From: Gammaproteobacteria bacterium
GTDB lineage: Bacteria; Pseudomonadota; Gammaproteobacteria; Ga0077536
Direction of reading: 5' to 3'
Length of the DNA stretch: 64,000 nt
Assembly (NCBI GenBank): GCA_016191285.1
Contig: JACPPA010000009.1
Location: forward strand, 62,001 to 126,000
Of this stretch, positions 57,833 through 61,390 are shown piece after piece. The translations under genes were made by a program, and so were the position numbers. Under the pieces are notes generated by a model, which saw nothing but the letters and a program-made list of their open reading frames with translations, ran no database searches and was not told the origin of the DNA. Within the stretch, counting starts at the first letter, position 1, and each line of letters starts with the position of its first letter.

Positions 57833-58846
57833 TTAGGCAGCGCATGACTGCGGGATGCGAGTCATAAAGTGCTCGGCTTCCGCAAACGCTTCGGCCACCC
57901 TTAAGTTCGGGCGCGCCGAGTGGCTGCCGATTAGTCGCCGCCATTCACGCGCGCCCGGACGCCCCTGCCACAATCCAAGCCAGTGTTTGCTCAAATGCCG
58001 AAGATCGGTGCCACTCGCCACCTCACGCTCGACATAGGGTTTGAGGCGAGCTAACACTGCCAATGCGTTCGTTACCGGCGCGCTGCTGTCAAAGAGGACC
58101 GCATCGACTTCAGCGAGCATGTCGAGCTGCGCGTAGCTCACACGACCGAGCATGACGCCATCGACATGTTCGAGATGCTGCACGGATTCGGCCAGCGAGC
58201 TGATCCCACCGTTAATGACCACCGACAGCTGCGGAAACGCGCGCTTGATCGCATACACGCGTGGATAGTCGAGTGGCGGGATCTCACGATTAGCGCGCGG
58301 GCTAAAATTGAGCAGCGCTTTCCGCGCGTGCAAGATCAGCGTCTCACACCCCGCGTCAGCGACCGCAGAGACCAAGCTACATAGGTGTTCGTAACTGTCG
58401 AGATTATCCACGCCTAAGCGAGTTTTCACCGTCACCGGTACCGGCACCGGCACAGCCTCGCGCATCGCGGCCACGCACTCCGCGACTAACGCCGGTTCGG
58501 CGATCAGGCACGCGCCGAAGCGGCCGGATTGCACGCGATCGCTGGGACAACCGACATTTAAATTGATTTCACAGTAACCCGCTTCAACGCCGAGTTTGGC
58601 CGCGGCCGCCAATTCATTCGGCACGCTCCCGCCGAGCTGCAACGCCACCGGCGTTTCCGCCGGATCGTGCGCCAGAAACCGGTTGCGATCACCGCGCAAA
58701 ACGGCGCTAGCCACCACCATTTCCGTGTACAGGCGAGCGTGCGTCGACATGCACCGCGCCAGAAACCGGAAATGACGATCTGTGTATTGCATCATGGGGG
58801 CAATGCAGAAGCGCCAAGGATTGAACTGATTAGGTGTGTGAGCCAA
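57833..58846 (-). CDS. dusA: tRNA-dihydrouridine(20/20a) synthase DusA
   Basis: DusA reduces U20 and U20a in the D-loop with FMN and NADPH. The sequence has the FMN-binding NPWRFCIAPMMQYTDRH, MVVASAVLRGD, GCPSDRVQSGRFGACLI (catalytic Cys) and VIVNGG-type (VVINGGISS) motifs. The 337-residue length is normal. A remnant of its first codons occurs again near 60.15 kb next to a vapC fragment, showing a local duplication. Confidence 0.95.
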   Translation of the reverse strand: MAHTPNQFNPWRFCIAPMMQYTDRHFRFLARCMSTHARLYTEMVVASAVLRGDRNRFLAHDPAETPVALQLGGSVPNELAAAAKLGVEAGYCEINLNVGCPSDRVQSGRFGACLIAEPALVAECVAAMREAVPVPVPVTVKTRLGVDNLDSYEHLCSLVSAVADAGCETLILHARKALLNFSPRANREIPPLDYPRVYAIKRAFPQLSVVINGGISSLAESVQHLEHVDGVMLGRVSYAQLDMLAEVDAVLFDSSAPVTNALAVLARLKPYVEREVASGTDLRHLSKHWLGLWQGRPGAREWRRLIGSHSARPNLRVAEAFAEAEHFMTRIPQSCAA

Positions 58847-59324
58847 AGGGGCAGCGGCCGATGGTTGAGTTGTGACGATTATGACGGTGTTTCCAGCGCA
58901 TTCGAAGTCGACGATAAGGTCTTGTGCCGGATCCGCTTGCAGATGTCGCTATACAGAGCGATCCGATTAATCGGTCGGCTCGGCGTCGCGGCGTGAAATC
59001 CAACCTGCCAAGCTAGGATGCCTGCCTCCGAATAAACGTGTGGTAACCCTCTCGAGCGCGTCGCCAAGGTGATAGATCACGGGAAAAGGCGCGGCCTTGT
59101 TCCATATGCGCATACGGAATGCTTGATACACTCATCGTCATCGCCGAACTCTGCAACAACATGGTCCCGACACCCCACCATCGGAATGCTTGATACACTC
59201 CCCGTGGCAACGTAATTACCGGCGTTTACATGTTCCTTTCTATAGTGGTGCGGCCGAGCTTGACGCCGGAGGGGGCTTTTGTGACAGTAAGAATTAATGA
59301 AGTCTTACAGTTATAGAGGCCTGT
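58847..59324. other. Intergenic region with a 19-bp direct repeat
   Basis: This gap between dusA and vapB has no convincing gene. It contains two exact copies of CGGAATGCTTGATACACTC at 59116-59134 and 59183-59201, 67 bases apart. Just before vapB a GTAAG/CTTAC inverted pair may form an operator-like site. Otherwise nothing is recognised. Confidence 0.6.
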
Positions 59325-59561
59325 ATGCGTATAACTTCGAAGGGTCAGGTCACAATTCCAGTGGAAATTCGTGAACGATTGGGACTCTTGCCGAATTGCG
59401 AAGTCGAATTCGTGGTTGAAGGTAGTGCGTTGCGATTGCGCAAGGTGCGTGGCGGTCGCGCGAGCGGACGCGGCCGAAGCATCGTGCAGCACCTCAAGGG
59501 CAAAGCGACCAGTAGCATGACGACGAAGCAGATTATGGCGCTTACCCGCGCTGAAATCTAA
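59325..59561 (+). CDS. vapB: AbrB/VapB-type antitoxin
   Basis: The 78-residue protein opens with a swapped-hairpin DNA-binding domain (MRITSKGQVTIPVEIRERLGLLPNCEVEFVVEG), as in AbrB/MazE antitoxins. A tail (RGRSIVQHLKGKATSSMTTKQIMALTRAEI) should wrap around the toxin. It would neutralise VapC and repress its own promoter. GAGG lies about 6 bases upstream of the ATG. The stop shares one base with the vapC start, so translation is coupled. Confidence 0.88.
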   Translation: MRITSKGQVTIPVEIRERLGLLPNCEVEFVVEGSALRLRKVRGGRASGRGRSIVQHLKGKATSSMTTKQIMALTRAEI

Positions 59562-59962
59562 TGCCGATCCTTGTCGATAGTAACGTGTTGTTAGACGTAT
59601 TGACCGAAGATCCGCAATGGTGTGAGTGGTCGATGGAGACCTTGGCCAGCCAAGCGGATCGAGACGTGCTGGCGATCAATCCGATTATTTATGCGGAGGT
59701 TTCGGTGGGATTCGAGCGTATTGAAGAACTCGAAGCGGCGCTCCCGGCGCTGAGTTTTCATCGATTACCACTGCCGTGGGAAGCCGCATTCCTCGCCGGT
59801 AAGTGTTTTGTGTCCTACCGCAAGCGAGGAGGATCGCGATCGTCACCACTACCAGATTTTTATATTGGCGCTCATGCCAGCGTTTCCCGCATGACTTTGC
59901 TCACCCGCGACGCGACGCGTTATAGAACTTACTTTCCCAAGCTAAAGCTCGTCACTCCGTAG
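59561..59962 (+). CDS. vapC: VapC PIN-domain ribonuclease toxin
   Basis: A 133-residue PIN-domain protein. The acidic active-site residues are D6 in MPILVDSNVLLDVL, E in IIYAEVSVGF, and D in LPDFYIGAHA and LLTRDATRY, as required for Mg-dependent RNase activity. In the family, targets are initiator tRNA or rRNA; this one is not established. The gene is intact, in contrast to the second copy 400 bases downstream. Confidence 0.9.
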   Translation: MPILVDSNVLLDVLTEDPQWCEWSMETLASQADRDVLAINPIIYAEVSVGFERIEELEAALPALSFHRLPLPWEAAFLAGKCFVSYRKRGGSRSSPLPDFYIGAHASVSRMTLLTRDATRYRTYFPKLKLVTP

Positions 59963-60351
59963 TCCGCGCTTGAGCGCATCGAACTGTAACTCGCCGTTAA
60001 CAAAGCCTTCATCAATCCGCCGCTTAAAAGCGGGTTTGAGTACAAGCGACTCCGCCTGAATGGGACTAGCAGGGGACTACAGCCTTTCCCCTACGTTTCC
60101 AATCCATTGAAAAATGTCGCGAATAAAAATAATCGATCCACTGCATCATCGGCGCGCAGCAGAAGCGCCAGGGATTGGATTTATCGGTAATTTTTATCAA
60201 GCGCAACAGCGTCCAGATCGTTTGAGCGACCGCGATTATGGCTTCATTTTCGACTATTTAGGACCATTTCGTTCAGCGTGGGACTACAGGTTGGTCGTTT
60301 GTCAGCCAGGATCAGCACTGTCGGCGCGACCAATACCCGCGTTGAACCCTG
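59963..60351. other. Intergenic region with dusA and vapB remnants
   Basis: No intact gene is present. Positions about 60135-60180, read on the minus strand, give NPWRFCCAPMMQW, matching the dusA start NPWRFCIAPMMQY. About 60340-60351 matches the last codons of vapB (ACCCGCG then TTGAA). This is the left part of a duplicated dusA-vapBC segment from which most of vapB was lost. Confidence 0.75.
60135..60180 (-). pseudogene. Remnant of the 5' end of dusA
   Basis: On the minus strand the translation NPWRFCCAPMMQW aligns with NPWRFCIAPMMQY of intact dusA, and the DNA matches 58786-58826 at roughly four bases in five. The match ends after about 15 codons on either side, so it is a truncated copy without function. 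Confidence 0.8.
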
Positions 60352-60753
60352 ATGCCGGTTCTAGTCGATAGCGATGTGTTGCTGGATATCTTGACCGAAG
60401 ATCCCCGATGATGCGCGTGGTCGATGAACACCTTCGCCGACCAAGCCGATCGCGGCGTAGTTGCGATTAATCCGATTATTTACGCGGAGGTTTCAGTAGG
60501 ATTCGCGCATATTGAAGAACTCGAAGCAGCGCTGCCAGTGTTGAGCTTTCATCGGTTGGCGCTGCCTTGGGAAGCCGCATTTCTTGCGGGTAAGTGCTTC
60601 GTGTCCTACCGTAAGCGCGGAGGGTCGCGATTGTCACCGCTGCCGGATTTTTATATTGGTGCGCACGCCAGCGTTTCCGGCATGACGTTGCTCACTCGCG
60701 ACGCAGCGCGTTATCGGACGTACTTTCCCAAGCTGAAGCTCATCGCACCTTGA
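60352..60753 (+). pseudogene. Decayed second vapC copy with an in-frame stop
   Basis: The frame starts MPVLVDSDVLLDILTEDPR, like intact vapC, but the Trp codon at position 20 is TGA (60409-60411). The frame then continues to its end without another stop, differing from vapC at about 16 of the last 114 residues. The reading frame from ATG 60424 gives 109 residues lacking the first acidic residue of the PIN site, so any product should be inactive as a nuclease. It has no antitoxin partner. Confidence 0.88.
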
Positions 60754-60877: not shown

Positions 60878-61390
60878 ATGATCTATCAGATAATTATTCC
60901 GCAGTTCAGCAAGATGCTTGGTAACCTCTTAACGATCTTCGATAGAGCGGCAATGCATGCCGAAACGAAGAAGTTCGAACTAGAGGTGCTATTGCACGCG
61001 CGATTGGCGCCCGATCAGTTCGATTTGATCCGCCAGGTGCAGGTGGCCTGCGATACCGCCAAGCTGGGCGCCGCCAGGCTCGCTGACAAAGAGCAGGACG
61101 CGCCGAGTCATCCCGACACCGAACAGAGCCTGGCCGAGATCAGGATGCGCATTCAAAGCGTGATTACCTATCTCGGCACTTTCTCGGAGGCGGATTTCGC
61201 GCACGCCGCGGAACGGCGGATCACGCAGCCGCGCTGGAAGGGGAAATCCCTGTCGGGGCAAGAGTTTCTGCTCCAGCATGTGGTTCCGAATTTCTATTTT
61301 CACGTGACTACTGCGTATGCCATCCTGCGCCACAATGGCGTCGAGGTTGGTAAGAAAGACTACCTCGGCGAGCTGCCCTATAAGGAATAA
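60878..61390 (+). CDS. DUF1993 family protein
   Basis: A 170-residue protein with the DUF1993 pattern: FSKMLGNLLTIFDRAAMHAETKKFE near the start and QEFLLQHVVPNFYFHVTTAYAILRHNGVEVGKKDYLG at the end. The family has a DinB-like four-helix fold. Its biochemical role is unknown. AGAGG lies 6 bases before the ATG. It stands alone. Confidence 0.88.
   Translation: MIYQIIIPQFSKMLGNLLTIFDRAAMHAETKKFELEVLLHARLAPDQFDLIRQVQVACDTAKLGAARLADKEQDAPSHPDTEQSLAEIRMRIQSVITYLGTFSEADFAHAAERRITQPRWKGKSLSGQEFLLQHVVPNFYFHVTTAYAILRHNGVEVGKKDYLGELPYKE

Follow-up and report, generated by a model that had tools for sequence, protein, structure and literature searches.

The window analyzed here, a DNA stretch of 64 kb (G000:C11:62001-126000) in a source genome of 5.1 Mb, contains an intact dusA gene for tRNA dihydrouridine synthase A, which occupies, with its present 5' end, positions 57833-58846 of the minus strand (NCBIfam NF008774, 445 bits). 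Upstream of this gene lies a non-coding gap (58847-59324), which constitutes the present promoter side of dusA and is unlike that of congeners, followed by two intact genes on the plus strand: vapB (59325-59561), encoding an AbrB/MazE-type antitoxin of 78 residues (PF04014, E 2.7e-9), and vapC1 (59561-59962), encoding a PIN-domain toxin of 133 residues (PF01850, E 3.4e-10). The next segment (59963-60134), the putative distal end of an insert, is AT-rich at its far side (33% GC at 60100-60141 vs 58% for the window), where it meets a displaced, attL-like fragment of the dusA 5' end on the minus strand (60135-60184, NPWRFCCAPMMQWID). Then come the probable former promoter region of dusA (60185-60319, minus strand), the 3' end (~18 nt) left of a second, otherwise deleted vapB (60334-60351, plus strand) and the pseudogene vapC2 (60352-60753, plus strand), in which a TGA at codon 20 (60409-60411) leaves a remnant open reading frame of 109 residues (60424-60753) without the first catalytic acidic residue. 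Beyond vapC2, a DUF1993 gene begins at 60878 (60878-61390); a related, decayed second copy with a TAG and a frameshift is found elsewhere in the genome (G000:C40:106018-106511). Upstream of vapB there is also a 24-nt direct repeat, CGGAATGCTTGATACACTC, at 59115-59138 and 59182-59205 (67 bp spacing), which was considered as a dispersed element and rejected, the genome holding only these two local copies. No RNA families were found at 56-64 kb.

On the basis of their domains and residues, vapB and vapC1 are a VapBC toxin-antitoxin pair, with predicted toxicity and neutralization; they resemble type II modules in domains, gene order, overlap of stop and start codons and the acidic residues of vapC1. 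The latter carries the four acidic residues of the PIN criterion, D6, E46, D99 and D117, which are invariant in alignment A1. The assignment applies to copy 1 only; unlike VapBC modules, copy 2 is an orphan pseudogene. The two vapC genes align ungapped at an offset of 791, with 328 of 402 nucleotides identical (82%) and the differences distributed 14/9/51 over the three codon positions; at the protein level, vapC2 has 16 changes from codon 20 onward, the stop included. The original prediction, which had described an intact vapBC pair and a second vapC with a TGA at codon 20 and about 16 differences, is thus confirmed on the letters, and the few bases of the vapB end that it had recognized before vapC2 amount to ~18 nt, of which ~14 are identical (alignment edge 59543/60334), similarity being absent further upstream.

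The genome contains no vapC copies other than vapC1 and vapC2, which form sister rows in a tree of 86 (support 100/98) and are by far each other's closest relatives, their other relatives being scattered across many phyla. Their divergence (Ks 0.86, Ka 0.074 and Ka/Ks ~0.09, Nei-Gojobori) shows that purifying selection acted while they separated and that vapC2 was functional for most of its history. It had been proposed that loss of the antitoxin forced loss of the toxin, thereby giving the order of events. This order is not supported: the Ka/Ks value, which holds over the whole divergence, indicates that vapC2 was disabled late and not soon after the copy arose, since an early loss of constraint would have given a several-fold higher Ka; by our own arithmetic, the neutral share of the copy-2 branch is at most ~17%, even assuming zero Ka elsewhere. 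In addition, the neighboring vapB1 could neutralize VapC2, a toxin 85% identical to its own partner, so that the sequence of losses does not follow from the absence of vapB2 alone. The longer end branch of vapC2 (0.16 vs 0.078 in the tree) and its changes at conserved sites (N8D and L28F) are consistent with late relaxation. The pS between the two copies (0.51) is below that of the flanking genes compared between this genome and the closest congener compared, G003 (0.67-0.73), which indicates that the copies split within the lineage or derive from close sources.

The minus-strand fragment of the dusA start previously noticed before vapC2 is real: over 43 nt of its 43-45 nt it is 79% identical to the dusA of the same genome (BLAST E 9e-5 against 64 kb; in a profile search of 6 kb, E 2.6e-8 and every other site at noise). 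Profile R1, which was built from 40 dusA starts, matches this piece at positions 2-39 (26.8 bits) and an attR-like segment inside the present dusA (~58776-58818) at positions 2-44 (40.8 bits); both segments are therefore within the conserved attachment region, and they contain imperfect direct repeats in the same orientation (58788-58808 and 60142-60162, 16/21 identical). Genomic islands and prophages are known to insert in the 5' end of dusA, where they generate imperfect repeats of ~21 bp, displace the original end and provide the gene with another 5' end and promoter (PMC4482086; PMC8409611); tandem insertions at dusA have been reported for Vibrio (PMC8409611). Intact dusA genes mostly match the profile to position 44 or 45, and the match stops at position 39 (of 45) in the window piece, in the presumed attL of a genome of the same class, G244, and in the terminal sequence of an integrated Vibrio element. 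Some intact dusA genes likewise stop at 38-39, however, so that this edge alone is no proof of an attachment site. The piece was also aligned directly with the presumed G244 attL and with the attP of the phages AH2, BcepIL02 and C5a, the first two of which have been named as dusA-integrase phages (PMC4482086, Farrugia et al. 2015); the BcepIL02 attP has TGCTGCGCGCC and the peptide NPWRFCCAPMM in common with it. The confinement of the piece to the region used by dusA-specific elements, with the same end as the presumed G244 attL and the Vibrio element, and the features shared with the BcepIL02 attP support insertion of such an element at this site.

Originally, the locus was explained by tandem duplication of a unit extending from the dusA start to vapC, with subsequent deletion of vapB2 and a stop in vapC2. 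Part of this explanation stands: the two toxins belong to one vapC lineage and are mutually the closest relatives, order and orientation with respect to the dusA start are alike in both units, and copy 2 is broken and has lost its vapB. Against a plain tandem copy, the spacers are unlike and homology extends no further than the stop codon of vapC, the sequences that follow vapC1 and vapC2 being non-homologous (p = 0.98). An alignment restricted to vapC had been named as evidence against duplication, and this is nearly, if not fully, what is found, since only the dusA piece and the ~18 nt from the vapB end align in addition. Non-coding sequences are difficult to align at a Ks of 0.86, which weakens this test, so that the mismatch of the tails is not decisive by itself and the spacer of copy 2 may have diverged past recognition. 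A breakpoint located exactly at the dusA attachment region, and the promoter comparison that follows, also argue against plain tandem duplication, which we consider possible but rather unlikely.

Which of the two dusA starts is older was evaluated by global alignment of 135 nt of upstream sequence, p values being obtained from 3000 random genomic pieces. The region upstream of the displaced piece resembles that upstream of dusA in the congeners G001 and G003 (p 0.0007 each), a statistical similarity over 135 nt, whereas the region upstream of the present dusA shows no resemblance to either (p 0.79 and 0.12, respectively); comparison with G002, G004 and G005, which are more distant, was uninformative. 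Such an asymmetry, with a congener-like promoter on the displaced side only, would be expected had the present dusA start arrived with the insert. The two upstream regions of the window are weakly similar to each other (p 0.015-0.04), as a tandem copy would have it. One weak local match to vapB within the displaced promoter region (60197-60243, p 0.01) was considered as a vapB remnant and dropped, being weaker than the promoter match.

Members of the genus share the gene order thiC - methyltransferase - dusA, and comparison of the locus in related genomes shows that vapBC is absent from dusA in congeners. In G003, homologs of the genes at 65.3-66.5 and 67.4-68.3 kb lie ~1.1 kb after dusA, which indicates that the stretch of 58.85-65.3 kb differs between the two genomes. 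The same geometry as in the window is seen in G395, a genome of an unrelated family, where a displaced dusA start of 25 residues is found 1.6 kb upstream of the gene and on the same strand (L197, 4838-6430); in this small insert, too, no integrase was seen, but its cargo consists of small hypothetical genes instead of vapBC. A probable, decayed dusA piece is also present in G001, 1.06 kb upstream of dusA (L050, 4931-6002), with an ungapped matrix score of 16.3 (next best, 3.7), although with a covariance model the match is not significant (E 0.015, a better chance hit being present); the region between holds a DUF4160 gene broken by an internal stop and a DUF2442 gene. This probable piece resembles the present dusA of the window (27/31 nt) more than it does the dusA of G001. 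In G244, an integrase similar to that of AH2 (41%) is divergent from and directly beside dusA (L202, 3245-5369), and the attL-like piece is on another contig (L203, 9701-9727), apparently as part of an intact dusA island. The absence of vapBC at dusA in congeners and the equivalent geometry in G395, probably also in G001, count in favor of insertion. A survey of dusA by exact pattern proved insensitive (62/369 genomes) and was replaced by the profile, from which the prevalence of displaced dusA pieces is at least that observed. In 80 loci from genomes and 14 from viruses, no vapC relative was found beside a dusA piece, and the idea that vapBC is a regular cargo of dusA elements was consequently rejected. 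A vapBC of the same lineage occurs at an unrelated site in G003 (C220; L062, 6690-7280); its vapB is intact (81% at the amino acid level) and its vapC is interrupted by a MITE-like insert of ~155 bp with inverted ends (CAGCCTGTCGGACTTAGG) and a CTAG duplication, and is truncated after ~40 codons.

No match to four dusA-element integrases was obtained in the window by tblastn, and no AH2-type integrase is present in the genome at E 1e-10. Integrase remains between dusA and vapB were considered and rejected, given that tblastn was blank and six-frame translation was without recognizable remains. The profile search found no third, outer dusA piece beyond vapC2. Together with the size of the insert, ~1.35 kb, the statistical nature of the promoter-side similarity, the weak vapB match at 60197-60243, the covariance-model result for G001 and the lack of vapC relatives beside dusA pieces, these results count against insertion. 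The lack of an integrase would also agree with two independent events of illegitimate recombination, each bringing one of two related vapBC pairs to the vicinity of dusA, the dusA piece being a by-product of repair and no site-specific element being involved; the scatter of vapC kin over many phyla and the presence of other decayed duplicates in the genome, such as that of DUF1993, are compatible with such events. Yet they would require the coincidence of sister toxins at one spot with a dusA piece edged like an attachment site, and this geometry recurs at dusA in G395, so we judge them improbable. It is very improbable, in our estimate, that tiny cassettes of toxin-antitoxin pairs between two dusA attachment sites, non-autonomous and moved by dusA integrases encoded elsewhere, have been stacking in tandem in the genus.

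The best account of the locus, which we consider probable, is that an element bearing vapBC inserted at dusA and left the present remnant, beyond which lies a related unit of greater age. An element with vapBC would have entered dusA at the conserved attachment region, around codons 8-20, giving the gene a new start and promoter, so that the old ones came to lie at 60135-60319. Its integrase and remaining parts would have disappeared later, while vapBC may have stayed because it punishes its own loss. The pseudogene vapC2 would stem from a unit that shared this site and the vapBC lineage but was older, and that had arisen either through an earlier related insertion or when the inserted element was duplicated; the vapB of this unit would have been deleted, and the reading frame of vapC2 stopped by the TGA late in its history. 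A hybrid history, with a duplication between the direct repeats of the inserted element, is also possible and would reconcile insertion with tandem duplication. The insert resembles dusA islands and prophages in its site at the 5' end of dusA and its imperfect repeats; it may also have provided the new start and promoter, as the statistical comparison of promoter regions suggests. Unlike them, it is only ~1.35 kb long, lacks an integrase and a directionality factor and borders on the decayed gene of a related toxin. It is best regarded as a remnant, not an intact member, of the dusA-specific integrated elements and a new example of a known process, for which no new kind of system is needed.

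For the interpretation of similar loci, these findings imply caution, in that a broken second toxin gene beside an intact pair need not indicate a fresh tandem duplication, and a displaced dusA start is a useful marker of old insertions that are missed by gene-based searches. On this reading, the locus illustrates what may remain of a dusA-targeted element after loss of its integrase, namely a swapped start and promoter of dusA together with a toxin-antitoxin pair.
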